Part shown: piece by piece, positions 55,829-64,000 of the stretch | Layout of the letters: the number at the start of each line of letters is the position of its first letter | How positions within the stretch are numbered: the first letter of the stretch is position 1 | Origin: Solidesulfovibrio alcoholivorans DSM 5433 | GTDB lineage: Bacteria; Desulfobacterota; Desulfovibrionia; Desulfovibrionales; Desulfovibrionaceae | Assembly (NCBI RefSeq): GCF_000702665.1 | Contig: NZ_JNJA01000003.1 | Coordinates: 248,001-312,000 of the forward strand | Direction: 5' to 3' | Length of the DNA: 64,000 nucleotides | Notes under the pieces: model-generated | Database searches by the model: none | What the model was told of the DNA's origin: nothing | The model's input: the letters and a program-made list of their open reading frames with translations, nothing else | Program-made: the position numbers and the translations under genes

Positions 55829-58800
55829 ATGAAATGGCCACGGCTGCAGAGTTTGCAGGTACGCATTACACTGCTTGTCCTTCTGGCATTGACTCCGGCC
55901 ATCATTCTCCACGTCGTCTCCGCCATGGAAAAACGCGCCATGACTCTCACGACCGCGGCAAACAACCTGCGCATAGTGACGGAATTGGCCGCATCAAATA
56001 TAGGTAAACTCTTACAGTCCTCCAGAGAAGCGCTCTCCGGCCTGGTCCTGCTTCCGGAAATACGGTCGATGCAGCCGGAAGCGGCGCAGGCGCTCCTCGC
56101 CAAGGCCACGAGCGTCTTCCCCAATTTCTCGAGCATCACGCTGCTCGACCTGCGGGGAAACGTCGTGGCCTCGACGCTGCCCGACACCAGCGCAGCCAAC
56201 TACGCCGACCGTCCCTGGGTGCGCGCGGCGACGGGCGGCAGCCCTCTCGGCATCGGGGCCTTCGCCCGGGGACGACGCAGCGGATTGCCGGGCGTCGCCC
56301 TGGCCAGCCCGGTACGGGGGGATTCCGGGGACGTCATCGGCGTCTGCACCGTCGCCGTGCGGCTGTCCGAACTCGTCAGCGTCATGGCCAATGCGCGCCT
56401 GCCGCGGCAAAGCCAGGCCGATTTGTTCGACGACACGGGGCTCGTCCTGGCCAACTGGCCGGAAAATCCGCAAGAGGTCGGGCAATCCTTTCCGGACGCC
56501 ATCCAAATCCTGGCCGACCAGGAAAGTGCGCCCCACGCGACCGTGACAGGCCCGGGACCGGACGGCTCGCCGTATTTTTTCTCCGTGGCCGCCGTGCGAT
56601 TCGGCGGCTCCTCGCCGCTGCACCTGCGCGTGGGGGAACCCAAGGCCCTGGCGGAAGGCCCCATGGCCGCCTCCCTGTTCCAGGACATGGTGATTTTCGC
56701 CATAACCCTGGCCCTGGCCCTTTTCGCGGCCTACCTGTTCGGCCGGACGTTTCTGTTGCTGCCTGCCGGCAAGCTCGCCCGCATGGCCAAGGCCATGGCC
56801 GTGGGCGATCTCGACCGCCGCTGCGACATGGGCGGCGGGCACGGGGAACTCTCCGAACTCGGCGCGGCCCTGGATGCCATGGCCGACACCCTGCGCGAGC
56901 GCATCCGCTTTACCCAGGAGATCATCGACGCCATTCCCACGCCACTTTTCTACAAAGACCTCGACGGGCGCTTCGTCGGCGTCAACAAGACCTACGAAAC
57001 GGACATCCGCCCTTTGGCCGCCGTCAAGGGAAAGACCTCCAGCGAGATCGATGCGCCGGAGATGGTCGCCCGCTGCGAGGCGACCGACAGGGAAATCCTC
57101 GCTACCCCGTCACGCTCCGTCCAGTTCGAAACCACGCTCCGGCTCAAGGACGGCCTTGCCCATGAGTTCCTTATCTTCAAATCGGCGTATTACAGCGCCG
57201 CGGGCGCTCCAGCCGGCATCGTCGGCGTGTGCCTGGACATCACCACCCGCAACCAATCCGAGAAAGCCCTGGCCGCCTCGGAAATGCGCTACAAATCGCT
57301 CCTCACCTCCATGCGAGACGGTTTTGTCGTGATCGACCGCAAGGACCGCATCGTCGAAACGAACCCGGCCTTTCGCGAGATGCTCGGCTACACCGATACG
57401 GAACTCGCCGGCATGACCTACAGGGACATCACGCCGCCCGAGTGGCACGAGAAAGAGGAGGCGATCCTGCGCGACGCCGTCGACGCCCACGGGTTCTCCC
57501 CGATTTTCGAAAAGGAATACCGGCGCAAGGACGGCACGCTGCTGTCCGTGGCCATACGCGTACACCGTTATCCGGGCACGCCGGAGGACGAACGGCGCTA
57601 TTTCGCCGTGGCGCGCGACGTTACCGCAACCAAGGCCATCGAGGCCGACCTGCGCCTGGCCAAGGAGGAGGCGGAAAGAGCCAACCGGGCCAAAAGCGAT
57701 TTCCTGGCCAAGATGAGCCACGACATCCGCACGCCGCTCAATGCCGTCATCGGCATGACCGACCTGACGCTCGGCAGCGAACTGTCCCCGACCCAGCGCG
57801 ACGCCCTGGAAACCGCCCGGGAATCCGCCGGCATCCTCCTCGACCTTATAAACGACGTCCTCGACATCTCGAAAATCGAGGCGCGCAAGCTGGAACTGGC
57901 AAACGAGCCCTTCGACCTGCGCCGCACCCTGGCCGCAACCGTGCGCGCCATGCGGCCGCAGGCCGCGCGCAAGGGGCTTGCCCTGCGCCTGTCGGTCGCC
58001 CCGGACGTCCCCCGCTTCGTGCGCGGCGACCAGATCCGGCTACGCCAGATCCTCGTCAACCTCATCGGCAACGCCGTCAAATTCACGGAAACCGGCGGCG
58101 TGTCCGTCTCGCTCAAGCGCGTCGCCACAGCAACGATGGGCAACTCCGCGCTGCTTTCCTGCGCCGTGGCCGACACCGGCGTCGGCATCCTTCCCGAACG
58201 CCTCGGCCGCATTTTCGACATGTTCACCCAGGCCGACGCCACGGTTTCCAGGCGCTACGGCGGCACGGGCCTTGGACTGGCCATCTGCCGGGAACTGGCG
58301 CGCCTCATGGGCGGCAACATCGCGGCGGAAAGCGCTCCGGGACGCGGCAGCACCTTCCGCTTCGCCATTCCCCTGCCCGAAACGCCGCCAGAAGAGCGCG
58401 GCGCGGACCATCCGGTGGCAGCCGGCTTCATTCTCCCCGCAGACAGGCCCCTGCGCATCCTCCTGGCCGAAGACAACCCGGTCAACATCAAGGTGGCCGC
58501 CGCCTACCTCGGCCGTCGCGGGCACACCTTCGTCGTGGCCCAAAACGGCCAGGAAGCCCTGGACCTCCTCGCCTGCCACCCCTTCGACGTTATCCTCATG
58601 GACCTGGAAATGCCCGAATGCGACGGCTTCGAAGCCACCCGCCGGCTGCGCGCCGGCGAGGCCGGGCCGCTGAACCGTTCCCGCCCGGTCATCGCCATGA
58701 CCGCCCATGCCTTAAGCGGCGTGCGCCAGCGCTGCCTGGAGGCCGGCATGACCGATTACCTGGCCAAACCGCTCGACTTCCAGGCCCTGGGCGTCCTGCT

Positions 58801-59224
58801 CGGCGGCATCACCGACGCGGAGGAGCCCAAACCGGCGACCGCGGCGCGGGACGACGCCAGGGCTCCGGACCTGGATACGGCGGCCGCGTTGCAGCGCCTG
58901 GGCGGCGACACGGAACTGCTGCGGGAACTGGAGTCGGATTTCCTGCGCCAGTATCCGCGAAAGCTGCGCCACATCACACTTTGCCGCAACAGCGAGAATT
59001 GGGACGAGGCGGCACTCGCCGCGCATTCCCTCAAGAACATCGTCGGCGCGATCGGGGCCGAGGCCGCACGACGCCTTGCCGGCGACCTGGAGGAAAGCCT
59101 GCGCCACAGCGACAGCGATGCCGCCGACCGGCTCTTCGGCGCCATCAAGGACAGCCTGCGCCACGTCGAAGAGGCCCTCGGCAACAGGGGGACGGCCCAA
59201 CCATCAGGCGCGACGGGATCGTAG
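55829..59224 (+). CDS. Hybrid sensor histidine kinase, membrane-bound, with REC and HPt domains
   Basis: 1131 residues. Helix 1 (ITLLVLLALTPAIILHVVSA, about 12-31) and helix 2 (about 288-310) flank a dCache-like sensor containing YADRPWVRAATGG and GVALASPVRGDSGDVIGVCT. A HAMP domain, two PAS domains (about 360-480, 485-610; FFAVARDV end), then HisKA MSHDIRTPLNAVIGM (His631), HATPase with GIGILPERL-like region and GGTGLGLAICREL, receiver LLAEDNPVNIKVA with Asp925, and a C-terminal HPt AHSLKNIVGAIGAEAAR with His1066. A full phosphorelay in one chain; no cognate DNA-binding regulator lies nearby, so the output is unknown. Confidence 0.95.
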   Translation: MKWPRLQSLQVRITLLVLLALTPAIILHVVSAMEKRAMTLTTAANNLRIVTELAASNIGKLLQSSREALSGLVLLPEIRSMQPEAAQALLAKATSVFPNFSSITLLDLRGNVVASTLPDTSAANYADRPWVRAATGGSPLGIGAFARGRRSGLPGVALASPVRGDSGDVIGVCTVAVRLSELVSVMANARLPRQSQADLFDDTGLVLANWPENPQEVGQSFPDAIQILADQESAPHATVTGPGPDGSPYFFSVAAVRFGGSSPLHLRVGEPKALAEGPMAASLFQDMVIFAITLALALFAAYLFGRTFLLLPAGKLARMAKAMAVGDLDRRCDMGGGHGELSELGAALDAMADTLRERIRFTQEIIDAIPTPLFYKDLDGRFVGVNKTYETDIRPLAAVKGKTSSEIDAPEMVARCEATDREILATPSRSVQFETTLRLKDGLAHEFLIFKSAYYSAAGAPAGIVGVCLDITTRNQSEKALAASEMRYKSLLTSMRDGFVVIDRKDRIVETNPAFREMLGYTDTELAGMTYRDITPPEWHEKEEAILRDAVDAHGFSPIFEKEYRRKDGTLLSVAIRVHRYPGTPEDERRYFAVARDVTATKAIEADLRLAKEEAERANRAKSDFLAKMSHDIRTPLNAVIGMTDLTLGSELSPTQRDALETARESAGILLDLINDVLDISKIEARKLELANEPFDLRRTLAATVRAMRPQAARKGLALRLSVAPDVPRFVRGDQIRLRQILVNLIGNAVKFTETGGVSVSLKRVATATMGNSALLSCAVADTGVGILPERLGRIFDMFTQADATVSRRYGGTGLGLAICRELARLMGGNIAAESAPGRGSTFRFAIPLPETPPEERGADHPVAAGFILPADRPLRILLAEDNPVNIKVAAAYLGRRGHTFVVAQNGQEALDLLACHPFDVILMDLEMPECDGFEATRRLRAGEAGPLNRSRPVIAMTAHALSGVRQRCLEAGMTDYLAKPLDFQALGVLLGGITDAEEPKPATAARDDARAPDLDTAAALQRLGGDTELLRELESDFLRQYPRKLRHITLCRNSENWDEAALAAHSLKNIVGAIGAEAARRLAGDLEESLRHSDSDAADRLFGAIKDSLRHVEEALGNRGTAQPSGATGS

Positions 59225-59256: not shown

Positions 59257-60702
59257 TCAGGCCAGCAACGCGAAGAGAAAAAAGAGCCCCGCTCCCAGGA
59301 ACATGGCCGCAGGCAGGGTGAAGACCCAGGCCATGGCGATGGAGCGCAGCGTGCGCATCTGCAATCCGCTTTTCCCGGCGGCCATGGCGCCGGCCACGCC
59401 CGAGGAAAGCACGTGCGTGGTGGAGACCGGCAGCCCCAGGCCGTCGGCCAGGCCGATGGTGGTCATGGCCACCACCTGTGCCGCGGCCCCCTGGGAATAG
59501 GACAGCTTGGTCTTGCCGATCTTTTCGCCGATGGTCACGACGATGCGCTTCCAGCCGACCATGGTGCCGACGCCAAGGGCCATGGAGACGGCCAGGAGCA
59601 CCCAGTCCGGCGCGTATTCCGTGGGCCGGCGCAGCACCTCCCGCCAGCGCCCGATCATTTCCCGGTCCGCTTCGGGCGCGATGTCCTGCATTTGCCGGGA
59701 AGCGTCGTCCAGGCACAGGATGTCCGTGCGGATGGCAAAGCGCTCGTGTTCGGGCAACGCGGCGATGGTGTCGGCCTGGGCCAGGCGCACCTGGATCGCT
59801 TCCGCCGCCGGCACCGCCCCGCGCACGTCGCAGTGGGGAGCCGGGCCGGCCTTCGGGGTCTCGATGAGCGCACCGCTCGCGTAGGCCTTTTCGATCTCCA
59901 GCCTGTGCGCGTCGAAATAGTCCGTGAACCGGGCCGCCACCTCCCGCACGGCCAGCACGTCCGCCTTGGGCGTATCCACGTCCAGGGCGTAAACCCCGGG
60001 CAGGATGCCGATCAAAATGAGCATGATGAGCCCCACGCCCTTCTGGCCGTCGTTGGAGCCGTGCGCCAGGGACACGCCGAGCCCGGAGACGATCAGCGCC
60101 GCGCGCATGGCCGCGGGCGGCGGCGCGTCGCCGACGGGCGGGGAATGCAGGGCCGCATTTTTGAGCAGGCGCTGCAACAGCAGCAACAGCCCGCCGGCAA
60201 GGACAAAGCCCATGACCGGGGAAATGAGAAGCGACAGCCCCACTTCCAAGGCCTTGTGCCAGTTGATGCCGGAGCCGGCGGGCAGGCCCTCGCGCACGGC
60301 GTTGGCCAGTCCCACGCCGAGGATCGCGCCGATGAGCGTATGGGAGCTCGAGGCGGGCAGGCCCAGGTACCAGGTGCCGAAGTTCCAGAGGATGGCCGAG
60401 ACGAGCAGCGAAAAGACCATGGCCAGGCCCAGGTTGGTGTTGACCGAGACGAGCAGGTCCACGGGCAGCAGGTGCACGATGGAATAGGCCACGGCGATGC
60501 CGCCCAGATGCACGCCGAGAAAGTTGCAAACCCCGGACAGCACGACCGCTGTGCGGGCGCGCAGGGACTTGGTGTAGATGACCGTGGCCACGGCGTTGGC
60601 CGTATCGTGAAAGCCGTTGACGAATTCGAAAGAGAGAGCGATGCCGAGCGAGGCCAGTAGGAGAAAAAGGGTATGGCCGTCGAGGCCGGAAAGGAAATCC
60701 AT
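59257..60702 (-). CDS. PiT-family inorganic phosphate permease
   Basis: 481-residue inner-membrane phosphate:cation symporter. The signature repeats are present: FEFVNGFHDTANAVATVIYT near the N-terminus, LGLPASSSHTLIGAILGVGL, SLAHGSNDGQKGVGLIMLIL, and a C-terminal GLPVSTTHVLSSGVAGA. A soluble domain of about 130 residues (about 255-385) separates the repeats. ATG 60702 with GGAG upstream. In many bacteria pit is beside a PhoU-like gene; here a PhoU-domain fusion gene lies about 850 bases away on the opposite strand, which suggests phosphate-linked control. Confidence 0.92.
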   Translation of the reverse strand: MDFLSGLDGHTLFLLLASLGIALSFEFVNGFHDTANAVATVIYTKSLRARTAVVLSGVCNFLGVHLGGIAVAYSIVHLLPVDLLVSVNTNLGLAMVFSLLVSAILWNFGTWYLGLPASSSHTLIGAILGVGLANAVREGLPAGSGINWHKALEVGLSLLISPVMGFVLAGGLLLLLQRLLKNAALHSPPVGDAPPPAAMRAALIVSGLGVSLAHGSNDGQKGVGLIMLILIGILPGVYALDVDTPKADVLAVREVAARFTDYFDAHRLEIEKAYASGALIETPKAGPAPHCDVRGAVPAAEAIQVRLAQADTIAALPEHERFAIRTDILCLDDASRQMQDIAPEADREMIGRWREVLRRPTEYAPDWVLLAVSMALGVGTMVGWKRIVVTIGEKIGKTKLSYSQGAAAQVVAMTTIGLADGLGLPVSTTHVLSSGVAGAMAAGKSGLQMRTLRSIAMAWVFTLPAAMFLGAGLFFLFALLA

Positions 60703-60844
60703 GCCGTACTCCGTGGGAAAGGGCGTCCGAGCGACGGCGCGCGCAGCGACGCCGCAGGGGCTGGTCCGGGCCGTCCGGTCCCGGGCGGCCGCCGTGTCGG
60801 AAGGGCGTGGCTCCGGGGCGCTTCGCGCCGCGGACCGATGCGCC

Positions 60845-61027
60845 TTACGTGCCTTCGACGAGGTGGACGAGGGCCTGCCTCGCCTTGAGCTCCTCAGCCG
60901 TGAAGTGGAAGCCGAGGCTTGCGGCGTACTCGATGAGCTCCGGCAGCGGCATGCCGCCGACCATGAGCAGCCTGTCCTTGTTTTCCCGCAGGTATTCGAG
61001 GAAACGGTCGATCTCTTCCTGACCCAT
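60845..61027 (-). CDS. Nif11-like small protein
   Basis: 60 residues resembling the Nif11 helix-hairpin domain: MGQEEIDRFLEYLRENKDRL, LPELIEYAASLGFHFTAEEL and a short KARQALVHLVEGT tail. Nif11 proteins include RiPP leader peptides and nitrogen-fixation-linked peptides; no Gly-Gly cleavage motif or core peptide is present. GGAGG lies nine bases before ATG 61027; an in-frame ATG at 61051 would add eight residues. It is upstream of the pit gene on the same strand and divergent from the amphi-Trp gene. Confidence 0.7.
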   Translation of the reverse strand: MGQEEIDRFLEYLRENKDRLLMVGGMPLPELIEYAASLGFHFTAEELKARQALVHLVEGT

Positions 61028-61275
61028 ACGTCCATCCTCCGTCGGCGACATGCAGGCGTTTTCCCGGGTTATCCTCCCCGGGTATGGAGGAAGCGTCAAC
61101 AAACGATGGCAATTCGGTGTTGCGGCCGCTTGTGCGGCGGGCCGTGCGCACGGACGAAACATGCGCCGCGTCCAATTTGCGTCCCGGCCTTCACCGTATC
61201 TTCATAATCGGGTGCTAGTGACCCCTTCGCGTCCGTGAAGCGGCCCCTTCCGCGTCCGGAACCCAAGGAGGCAAT

Positions 61276-61557
61276 GTGACGAACAAGCTGTTCAAATACG
61301 ACGGCCTGCAGGAACGCGACGCCATCGCCGCCTACCTCGAGGCCGTGCGTGACGGTTTCGCGCACGGCACCGTGACCCTGCGCCAGGGCGAACAGGTGCT
61401 GGAGCTCCTGCCCAAAGGGCTCATCGCCGTCACCATCGAAGGCAAGCAGAAGGGCGAGGACCGCAAGCTCAAGCTGACCTTCCGCTGGAAGGAGCGGGAA
61501 TGCGAGTTGATCGACGCGCCCCTGCTCATCGCGCCAGGGGATGCGGGCGATGCATGA
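61276..61557 (+). CDS. Amphi-Trp domain protein
   Basis: 93 residues resembling the amphi-Trp domain (TIGR04354): LFKYDGLQERDAIAAYLEAV then DGFAHGTVTLRQGEQVLEL, an alternating-hydrophobic strand pair, and the C-terminal LKLTFRWKERE. Family members are small proteins of unknown function, often beside ATP-grasp and HprK-like kinase genes ('GAK system'). GTG 61276 is supported by AAGGAGG. Its 3' end overlaps the PhoU-kinase fusion by eight bases, so the two are translationally coupled. Confidence 0.82.
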   Translation: MTNKLFKYDGLQERDAIAAYLEAVRDGFAHGTVTLRQGEQVLELLPKGLIAVTIEGKQKGEDRKLKLTFRWKERECELIDAPLLIAPGDAGDA

Positions 61558-63181
61558 GATCGTAACAAACTTCCAGTTCCTGCTCGTCGAAATCGAACGG
61601 CAGGTCGAGGCGGCCATGGCCGTCATCGAAAAGCACGACGAACGGGCCATCGCCAAGATCGAGGCCCGCGACGACTATATCGACAACCTCAAGAGCGTCA
61701 TCGAAAACGGCTGCTTCGCCACACTGCTCGGGGCCGAGCGGCTCACCGCCCAGGAAACGGCCCGGGTGCGCGCGCTCAACATCATCGGCAACAACCTCGA
61801 ACGCGTGGGCGACCATGTGGTCAACGTGGTGCGCCAGACCCGCCACTACGACGAACCCGAGTGCATCCAGCGCTACGCGTACAAGCCGTTTTTCGCGGAG
61901 GTCAAAAAGGCCCTCGAATGGACGCCCAAGGCCGTGCTCGAACGCGACATGTCGGCGGCGCTCAAGATCTGCCGCTGCGAACTGCACCTGGACCGGCTTT
62001 ACAAGGAGCAGTTCGACCGCATCCGCGACGAGCTGCGCTCGGGCTTCCAGACCGGCGACCTGCTGACCACGCTTTTCATCTTCCGCTACCTGGAACGCAT
62101 GGGCGATGCGCTGCTCAACGTCGGCGAGGCGGCCATCTTCGCCATCACCGGCGACAAGTTCAAAATCCACCAGTTTACGGCGCTCAAGGACATCCTGACC
62201 GAGAGTGGCCACGAACTGCCCCTGACCGAGATCGACTTCGAGTCCATCTGGGGCACCCGCTCGGGCTGCCGCATCGGCCGGGTGGCCGACCGGGATGAAA
62301 ACGGCGAGTCCGGCCGCGAGGTCATCTTCAAGGACGGGGACACGGCCAAGCTGCGCAAGGAAGCGGCCAACATCGAGCACTGGGAATGCCTCATGCCGGG
62401 GCTCGCCCCGCGCGTCGAGGCCTTCCGGGAAGGCCGCAAATCGAGTTCCATGCTGATCGAACTGCTCCCCGGCCAGACCATCCAGGACATCGCCCTGGGC
62501 GGCGACCTGACGCTGTTGCGCCGCGCCCTTTCCGCCCAGTGCCGCGTGGCCGGCGAGATCTGGGAAAAGACCCTCGAGCGCGCTGTCGTCCCGGCCGGGA
62601 CCATGGCCCAGTTGCGCTCCCGGCTCGACGAGGTACTCACGGTCCACCCGGGCTTTCAAAGCGTGCCGCGCGCCATCGGGGACTACGCCCTGCCGAACCT
62701 TAACGACGCCCTGCGCGGGGCCGAGGCCGTGGAAGCGGGCCTTGCGGCCCCCTTCACGGTGCTGTTGCACGGCGACTACAACAGCAACAACATCCTCTAC
62801 GACGGCGTCAAGGACCGGATCCACTACATCGACCTGCACCGCTCCGCCCCGGGCGACCTGGCCCAGGACACGTCGGTCTTTATGGTGTCCAACTTCCGCC
62901 TGCCCGTCTTCGACGCGTCCCGACGGCGCATCCTGAACGCCATCATCGCGGAGTTCTTCGAATTCGCGCGTGGCTTCGCCGCCCGAAACGGTGACGACAC
63001 CTTCGAGCTGCGCGTGGCCCTGGGGCTGGCCCGCTCGTACATCACCTCGACGCGGTTCGAACTGAGCGAGCGGTTTTCCAGGCTGATGTTTTCACGCGGC
63101 ATGTATCTGCTTGGCCGCGTGGCCGGACATGCCGGCCCCCCGGCCGCCTTCCGGTTGCCCCTGGCCGCGGCCTGTTACTGA
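61550..63181 (+). CDS. PhoU-like domain fused to APH-type kinase
   Basis: 543 residues. Residues 1-210 are a PhoU-like helical domain with two repeats (ERQVEAAMAVIEKHDERAIA, NIIGNNLERVGDHVVNVVRQ, then FRYLERMGDALLNVGEAAIF). From about 235 follows an APH/choline-kinase-like phosphotransferase: VIFKDGDTAKLRKEAANIEH (ATP lysine region), LHGDYNSNNILYDG (catalytic Asp and Asn) and IHYIDLHRSAPGDLAQD. I know of no standard family with this exact order. ATG 61550 (GGGG nine bases upstream) overlaps the amphi-Trp stop. Substrate unknown; PhoU domain suggests a phosphate-status input. Confidence 0.83.
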   Translation: MHEIVTNFQFLLVEIERQVEAAMAVIEKHDERAIAKIEARDDYIDNLKSVIENGCFATLLGAERLTAQETARVRALNIIGNNLERVGDHVVNVVRQTRHYDEPECIQRYAYKPFFAEVKKALEWTPKAVLERDMSAALKICRCELHLDRLYKEQFDRIRDELRSGFQTGDLLTTLFIFRYLERMGDALLNVGEAAIFAITGDKFKIHQFTALKDILTESGHELPLTEIDFESIWGTRSGCRIGRVADRDENGESGREVIFKDGDTAKLRKEAANIEHWECLMPGLAPRVEAFREGRKSSSMLIELLPGQTIQDIALGGDLTLLRRALSAQCRVAGEIWEKTLERAVVPAGTMAQLRSRLDEVLTVHPGFQSVPRAIGDYALPNLNDALRGAEAVEAGLAAPFTVLLHGDYNSNNILYDGVKDRIHYIDLHRSAPGDLAQDTSVFMVSNFRLPVFDASRRRILNAIIAEFFEFARGFAARNGDDTFELRVALGLARSYITSTRFELSERFSRLMFSRGMYLLGRVAGHAGPPAAFRLPLAAACY

Positions 63182-63353
63182 CGTTGCTTGACCCCGCCGC
63201 GCGCCCCGGCGCGCGGCCCATTACGGAGGCGTCGCCGGAAGGCAGCGCAAACGACCCTCTTGCCGGAGACGGCCCGCGCACAGGGCTGTCCGGGCCGGGC
63301 GCGACGCCGCCCCGGACGAGAGCCATGACGGCGAGAAGACCATGGGAGGAATC
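63182..63353. other. Gap before the ATP-grasp gene
   Basis: 172 bases with a GC hairpin at about 63196-63217 (CCGCGCG arms) and a 10-codon mini-frame (63325-63357, MTARRPWEES) whose TGA overlaps the ATG of the next gene. No other feature. Confidence 0.45.
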
Positions 63354-64000
63354 ATGAAGAAGATCGGCGTGGTGGGCATCCCAAAGGGATGGTCCACCCT
63401 GCGGCTCCTGGACGCCCTGGAAGCGAAGACGGGCTTTCGCCTGTGCATCGACATGGCCGAGGTCCGCCTCGACCTGGACACGGGCAAGGTGTTTTGCCAG
63501 GGGACCGACCTCACCGGCCTCGACGCGATCATCGTGAAAAAGATCGCCCCGTCCTATACCCCCGACGCCCTGGACCGCATGGAGATCCTGCGCTTCCTCC
63601 ACCAGAAGGGCGTGCCCGTCTTCTCCAGCCCGGACAGCATGCTGCGCCTGATCGACCGCTTAAGCGGCACCACGGTGCTGCGCCTGGGCGGCATCCCCAT
63701 GCCGCCCACGGTCGTGACCGAGGACATCGAGGAAGCCGCGGCCACGGTGGCGCTCTACGGCAAGGCCGTGTTCAAGCCGCTTTTTTCCTCCAAGGCCCGG
63801 GGCATGACCGTCATCGAGGACACCCCCGACGCCCGGGAGGAGATCGCCGACTACAAGGCGGCCGGCAACCAGGTCATGTACATCCAGAAGATGGTTTCCC
63901 ACGCCGGCGGCCACCTCGACCTTGGCGTGTCGTTTCTCGGCGGCAAATACCTGGCCACCTATGCCCGCCAGGGCAGCGGCGCGTCCTGGGACACCACCAC
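63354..64000 (+). CDS. ATP-grasp enzyme (GAK-system-like), 3' end outside window
   Basis: The first 215 codons are visible. MKKIGVVGIPKGWSTLRLLD starts a pre-ATP-grasp domain; the ATP-grasp core begins around DRLSGTTVLRLGGIPMPPTV, with the lysine strand YGKAVFKPLFSSKARGMTVI and VMYIQKMVSHAGGHLDLGVS. It matches RimK-like ligases and, in context, the ATP-grasp member of the GAK neighbourhood. GGGAGGAATC precedes ATG 63354. Ligase substrate unknown. The gene would continue for perhaps 100 codons past the edge. Confidence 0.85.
   Translation, partial: MKKIGVVGIPKGWSTLRLLDALEAKTGFRLCIDMAEVRLDLDTGKVFCQGTDLTGLDAIIVKKIAPSYTPDALDRMEILRFLHQKGVPVFSSPDSMLRLIDRLSGTTVLRLGGIPMPPTVVTEDIEEAAATVALYGKAVFKPLFSSKARGMTVIEDTPDAREEIADYKAAGNQVMYIQKMVSHAGGHLDLGVSFLGGKYLATYARQGSGASWDTT

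Follow-up and report, generated by a model that had tools for sequence, protein, structure and literature searches.

The closest described counterpart of the locus reported here is the GAK system (NCBIfam TIGR04354-TIGR04358), in which an amphi-Trp domain protein, an ATP-grasp enzyme and HprK-related kinase B are grouped with CofD-like and XXXCH proteins. Searches of the openly available literature for amphi-Trp, for the GAK system with ATP-grasp, and for multi-component combinations of HprK-like, ATP-grasp, PhoU, CofD and Desulfovibrio, returned no paper. Those for HprK-related kinase, GAK system, CofD-like and XXXCH returned only items whose titles and opening abstract lines did not apparently concern GAK, and a search for PhoU fused to an aminoglycoside phosphotransferase (APH) found only a Stenotrophomonas resistance review. 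As far as this literature shows, GAK is a named but unexplained cassette. We analyzed a GAK locus at the end of a 64,000-nucleotide stretch, hereafter the window, of the 5.13-Mb genome of Solidesulfovibrio alcoholivorans DSM 5433 (contig NZ_JNJA01000003.1, here C3, positions 248001-312000). What is new is a pair of unnamed, nearly constant GAK partners, a PhoU-APH fusion protein (PhoU-APH) and a PHP-like protein (protein X), together with a phosphate-linked model for the system.

The end of the window cuts through a GAK operon of amphi-Trp, PhoU-APH, ATP-grasp and HprK-related kinase B genes. The amphi-Trp gene (61276..61557, plus strand, GTG start, 93 aa) scored 67.2 bits against TIGR04354 (cut-off 31) and 35.2 bits against PF20068 (cut-off 27). 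It shares 17 bases with the PhoU-APH gene (61541..63181, plus strand, 546 aa), which is followed by the ATP-grasp gene (63342..64000, plus strand), which confirms the original prediction of three plus-strand genes, the first two overlapping and the third cut by the window edge. The window holds the first three quarters of the ATP-grasp gene, a portion that scored 296.8 bits against TIGR04356 (cut-off 300); the full gene, ending at 64235 in continued numbering (C3:312235), scored 429.1 bits over its full length. Just past the window lies HprK-related kinase B (HprK_B; C3:312250-313302; TIGR04355, 559.7 bits, cut-off 200), whose gene overlaps the ATP-grasp stop codon by one base. Because TIGR04354, TIGR04356 and TIGR04355 were all matched above cut-off, this is a GAK locus, as had been proposed, and we regard its anatomy as authentic with high confidence.

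The same prediction had cast PhoU-APH as the kinase partner of the system in place of an HprK-like kinase. We rejected this role of stand-in because a regular HprK_B follows the ATP-grasp gene; PhoU-APH is instead an additional, nearly constant GAK component. As a check it had suggested looking for CofD-like, HprK-like and XXXCH genes beyond position 64000, where only the HprK-like gene was found. The GAK system of this genome, unlike the described one, is split over three places, which lie beside pit, pst-like and phoU genes. A second cluster, on contig C12, holds XXXCH, X, amphi-Trp and a second PhoU-APH gene; upstream of it are a gene for a binding-protein-dependent permease and one whose product falls in a cluster of PstS-like proteins. 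At 12-16 kb of C3 are a plain PhoU gene, a second HprK_B gene (HprK_B2) and the only CofD-like gene found in the genome (C3:12678-13781; TIGR04357, 548.4 bits). XXXCH (TIGR04358) was found on C12 and C1, and amphi-Trp has eight matches genome-wide, two of which are duplicates from a palindromic contig.

The proposed fusion of PhoU to an APH-type kinase was borne out, both domains scoring above cut-off (PF01895, 68.3 bits against 23.5; PF01636, 27.9 bits against 23.2). In profile alignments with solved chains, residues 10-216 aligned to PhoU structures and residues 254-443 to APH structures. An AlphaFold2 model of the protein (predicted local distance difference test, pLDDT, 88.4) matched PhoU 4q25 with a target-normalized TM-score (TMt) of 0.85 and APH(3')-Ia with a TMt of about 0.6 in a Foldseek search of the PDB. 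Residues E87/D91 and E185/D189, which we take to be the PhoU metal motifs, and K264, H410, D412, N417 and D431, presumably the kinase residues, were invariant in 39/39 sequences. The protein thus resembles PhoU in fold but differs in carrying a kinase, and it reached only 79 bits against the PhoU equivalog TIGR02135 (cut-off 130.25). Likewise, it shares the fold and kinase-type residues of APH-fold kinases such as APH(3') and fructosamine kinase, but at 19.6 bits against a cut-off of 205 (NF033068) it does not match the APH(3') model, and we rejected the APH half as an aminoglycoside resistance gene on this score. PhoU-APH exceeded no NCBIfam cut-off, and a search of phages for it gave no match.

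Protein X, of about 390 aa, had no Pfam or NCBIfam family match in the first two proteins tested. Its alignment contains the motif series HWH, TQHN, GVEVD, LLLHF, IPHPE, DGYEVWN and MGDDTH, and H74, H76, H106, E119, H136, H284, E302, D339 and H342 were invariant in 34/34 members; we assume that these motifs and residues correspond to PHP motifs of the metal-ligand type. The best four PDB matches of its predicted model (pLDDT 89.3) in Foldseek were PHP enzymes (3o0f, 3e0f, 9etk and 2yb1; probability 1.00, E 7e-5 to 2e-3). We therefore describe X as a putative PHP phosphoesterase by predicted fold and conserved residue pattern, with weak support at the sequence level.

Support for both proteins as GAK partners comes from co-inheritance. 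In a phylum sample of 395 genomes, searched at E 1e-60 for ATP-grasp and PhoU-APH and at E 1e-30 for X, 25 genomes carried the GAK ATP-grasp, 29 PhoU-APH and 28 X. PhoU-APH was present in 24 and X in 21 of the 25 ATP-grasp genomes, and the two new partners occurred together in 26 genomes (hypergeometric P < 1e-24 for each pair, uncorrected for relatedness). PhoU-APH was missed in one ATP-grasp genome (G078) and X in four (G042, G078, G193 and G295); the locus runs into a contig end in all four, and two of the genomes, G042 and G078, are incomplete (67% and 62%). A PhoU-type match (60 bits) was seen about 3 kb from X in a 1.7-Mb genome (G218) whose X gene (L163:9739-10893) occurs without PhoU-APH or the GAK ATP-grasp at these thresholds.

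Gene order was similarly conserved in loci of named genomes, limited to the top 80 among at least 517 relatives, 73 of which had enough sequence for counting the order of PhoU-APH and HprK_B. PhoU-APH lay directly upstream of ATP-grasp (400-base rule) in 65/73 loci, and HprK_B directly downstream, again in 65/73. Among the eight loci that missed the PhoU-APH rule, three (L102, L107 and L115) have PhoU-APH just upstream with a best match covering only part of the gene, one (L085) has it upstream with CofD between, and PhoU-APH was not found in four (L082, L083, L125 and L153). Amphi-Trp preceded PhoU-APH in 58 of 65 loci, X was present in 43 of 57 and CofD in 40 of 60. In one family (f82), X, amphi-Trp and PhoU-APH occur without a GAK ATP-grasp match at four loci, at least two of which adjoin dnaX-, YbaB- and acetate kinase-type genes; the family also includes a fifth genome, in which the parts are spread over two contigs, and one (G262) with X only. 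This set looks like a minimal module. The sister loci L077-L081, from Solidesulfovibrio or Desulfovibrio, share 83-96% ATP-grasp identity, and record titles extend the reach of GAK to Planctomycetes, Myxococcota, Alpha- and Gammaproteobacteria.

Desulfamplus magnetovallimortis has two GAK ATP-grasp loci (L130 and L143), as does one metagenome-assembled genome of Desulfovibrionaceae (L083 and L144), in which both are near an MgtA-type gene. In-frame stops occur within PhoU-APH and X at L059:4291-7564, from decay or sequencing error. At five loci (L088, L098, L127, L138 and L141), a divergent family 4 glycosyltransferase of about 810-830 aa lies 0.2-2.1 kb upstream of the GAK operon. As clues to a substrate, we considered two neighbors that recur, a glycosyltransferase (12 loci) and a radical SAM protein (7 loci), and neither pointed clearly to one; a survey of 105 immediate flanks found no dominant family, the commonest matching 5/105.

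Five plasmid records with GAK were found, all from Rhodobacterales, and the three annotated regions read share one order: PhoU-APH, ATP-grasp, HprK_B, histidine phosphatase, metallophosphoesterase, amphi-Trp. CofD is divergent in two of the three, a NUDIX gene overlaps PhoU-APH in one, and X was not found in any of them by six-frame search. The same metallophosphoesterase family (37-56% identity) stands beside GAK in L147, L150, L155, L110 and L126, where a histidine phosphatase is also present and X is absent. Three further loci (L113, L120 and L154) likewise have no X, and no replacement phosphatase was established there. The kinase is thus usually found with a phosphatase, the family of which differs between loci.

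These observations suggest that GAK runs a phosphate-gated cycle of phosphorylation and dephosphorylation coupled to the chemistry of the ATP-grasp, HprK-like and CofD-like enzymes, a reading to which we assign a probability of about one half. PhoU-APH would be a kinase that responds to phosphate or metal by way of its PhoU half, and it may phosphorylate a hydroxyl group, either on a small molecule or on a carrier, for example the amphi-Trp protein. Protein X would reverse the reaction, or the histidine phosphatase and metallophosphoesterase would do so where X is missing. In a second stage, the ATP-grasp, HprK-like and CofD-like enzymes may attach a ligated group together with additional phosphates. 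A phosphate- or metal-gated kinase opposed by a phosphatase would therefore constitute a cycle tuned to phosphate supply. Our confidence in this mechanism is moderate: we infer its steps from a composition, gene order, conserved residues and co-inheritance that are directly observed.

The link to phosphate status, which the original prediction had drawn from the PhoU fusion together with a neighboring phosphate permease and Nif11-like peptide, now has moderate independent evidence from other neighbors. Among the loci searched, a pit of this type and the Nif11-like gene adjoin GAK in this genus alone. Of 40 plain PhoU genes above cut-off in 27 genomes, 4 lay within 10 kb of a GAK anchor against 0.29 expected from random placement (P = 2e-4). 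This enrichment, together with the invariance of the four acidic residues of the PhoU half, argues against a chance association, in which GAK would be a metabolic cassette unrelated to phosphate, its PhoU half serving only for dimerization or as a scaffold. Several flanking genes are housekeeping genes, and clustering found a Pst or PhoU neighbor at only 11 of 104 loci (not all independent, as some genomes are in both collections), both of which favor chance; we nevertheless consider this explanation very unlikely.

Transport offers another way to explain the same neighbors. PhoU-APH could be a signaling protein that controls import of phosphate (Pit/Pst) or magnesium (MgtA), with the GAK enzymes as a separate module in a shared operon. 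At this locus a Pit-type permease is divergent and a magnesium P-type ATPase (MgtA) gene lies about 180 bases downstream of HprK_B; MgtA-type ATPases cluster beside GAK in 9/104 loci, five of the nine in this genus. In PMC13170248, moreover, PhoU-family regulators are treated together with the cognate transporters with which they work, and PhoU proteins with further known domains are excluded from its PhoU set. Two results make such a role unlikely: in the phylum sample PhoU-APH goes together with X and with the GAK ATP-grasp, and of 27 PhoU-APH genomes searched for Pit at E 1e-10, 14 gave no match.

The enzymes themselves leave room for a reading in which the phosphate genes are incidental. 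GAK could be a system of peptide or protein modification, its ATP-grasp ligating amino acids onto, and its kinases phosphorylating, the amphi-Trp and XXXCH proteins. The GAK ATP-grasp is nearest to alpha-glutamate ligases (MptN, 129 bits, and solved RimK-type ligases), amphi-Trp usually stands before PhoU-APH, and at least one genome encodes an amphi-Trp/XXXCH fusion protein. HPr kinase, the namesake of HprK_B, is moreover a protein kinase. Against this, amphi-Trp was not upstream of PhoU-APH in 7/65 loci, though it was elsewhere in the sequence examined in five of those seven, and GAK loci include an APH-fold kinase and PHP, histidine phosphatase, metallophosphoesterase and NUDIX partners, which are mostly small-molecule enzymes. 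We regard modification as a tentative possibility, and a doubtful one.

A more specific form of small-molecule chemistry is suggested by analogy. Eukaryotic inositol-pyrophosphate metabolism uses an ATP-grasp-like kinase (Vip1/Asp1) and hydrolases of the histidine acid phosphatase, Nudix and tyrosine-phosphatase families (PMC8064635, PMC9765450). GAK loci similarly combine ATP-grasp, histidine phosphatase and, in one of the three plasmid regions, NUDIX with a PhoU domain, and neighbors of the low-molecular-weight tyrosine-phosphatase family were found at 6/104 loci. The GAK ATP-grasp, however, is of RimK type, and the likeness is one of toolkits, which does not amount to evidence of homology to inositol phosphate kinases. 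The boldest reading built on this analogy, and one that we consider decidedly unlikely, makes GAK a bacterial counterpart of that metabolism. The system would then synthesize and degrade a sugar or cyclitol carrying many phosphates, possibly pyrophosphates, that serves to store phosphate or as a messenger. PhoU-APH would read phosphate and start phosphorylation, the ATP-grasp and HprK-like enzymes would attach additional (pyro)phosphates, and these would be removed by phosphatases of the PHP, histidine, NUDIX or calcineurin type. In Desulfovibrionaceae the product could then be a phosphorylated glucose or part of iron-phosphorus granules. An unusual phosphorylated glucose has reportedly been found in granules of Desulfovibrio gigas, a species with no entry among the 80 top loci above. 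For the iron-phosphorus granules of Desulfovibrio magneticus, PMC5134017 describes spectra without a satisfactory fit to reference phosphates.

Several points weigh against the phosphate-gated cycle. The chemistry of the GAK enzymes may differ from that of their namesakes, since HprK_B retains the P-loop and His but has NDR instead of the HPr kinase DDR in 26/26 sequences, and the ATP-grasp has no Asn at the usual position. In the latter, D255 is kept in 24/25 sequences and E267 in 25/25, and an invariant Ser269 (25/25) occupies the position of the RimK-type ligase Asn. We infer that this site corresponds to Asn335 of the inositol kinase Asp1, which PMC9765450 describes as not essential. The assignment of X is similarly exposed: its PHP fold matches have a query-normalized TM-score of only 0.35-0.37, none of the 34 members matches Pfam PHP (PF02811), and comparing its profile with those of PHP proteins from relatives yielded a probability of 1.5%, although the motifs agree in the alignment, where IPHPE falls opposite LAHP and MGDDTH opposite GGSDFH-type stretches. 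As for the phosphate neighbors, the 10-kb limit for PhoU was fixed after examples had been seen, Pst or PhoU genes are as sparse as the clustering above indicates, and Pit adjoins GAK only in this genome among the 27.

The genes next to the operon appear to be features of this genus. Both the Pit-type permease gene (59257..60705, minus strand; PF01384, 295.9 bits, cut-off 33.7) and the Nif11-like gene (60845..61027, minus strand) are divergent from the operon, as had been predicted. The start of pit near 60705 follows a 482-aa sister open reading frame (ORF; L077:6013-7458); close Pit relatives adjoin GAK only in the five sister loci (77-91% identity) among the loci searched, with one further PHO4-family flank among the 105. 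The Nif11-like identification fared less well, as the ORF falls below both Nif11 cut-offs (16.8 against 32.3 bits for TIGR03798, and 19.7 against 23.8). Judging from the five sister loci, in all of which the protein is 68-92% identical, the conserved part is 60 aa and position 60845 is the stop end of the ORF; a longer 105-aa reading is probably too long. The ORF ends with the domain, with no core peptide after it, and no match was found outside this genus among 83 loci searched. We therefore rejected it as a precursor of a ribosomally synthesized and post-translationally modified peptide (RiPP); it is a conserved neighbor in this genus without RiPP features.

Upstream of the operon lies a conserved block (61189..61212, plus strand) containing a pair of direct repeats of the CTTCA type at a spacing of 11 nt, identified by comparison with the sister loci, four of which have the pattern at the same place and the fifth with one mismatch. 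Genome-wide the pattern occurs at nine places, against four for a reversed control; two are at this operon (one in a duplicate arm) and one lies some 0.5 kb away from the phoU gene that neighbors HprK_B2. Neither the phoU genes of C13 and C2 nor the pst-like genes near C12:84 kb have it. The repeat, with its 11-nt period, is a possible regulator site and a candidate Pho box. Convergent with pit, at 55829-59224, is a large hybrid sensor kinase-like gene in which PAS-like, receiver-like and Hpt-like stretches could be recognized by eye. Contig C3 itself is an apparently perfect inverted duplication at about 334660, some 22.7 kb beyond the window end, with 0 mismatches over 30,661 positions checked and paired family matches that sum to 669,321; the window lies within one arm. 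This is probably an assembly artifact, and one that contributes to the contamination estimate of 7.78%.

A PhoU-domain kinase and a putative phosphoesterase are thus usual members of a cassette of wide taxonomic reach that also occurs on plasmids of cultured Rhodobacterales, which makes the function of GAK concretely testable. If the proposed cycle is real, phosphate-gated phosphorylation by GAK would represent a new layer of bacterial phosphate homeostasis.

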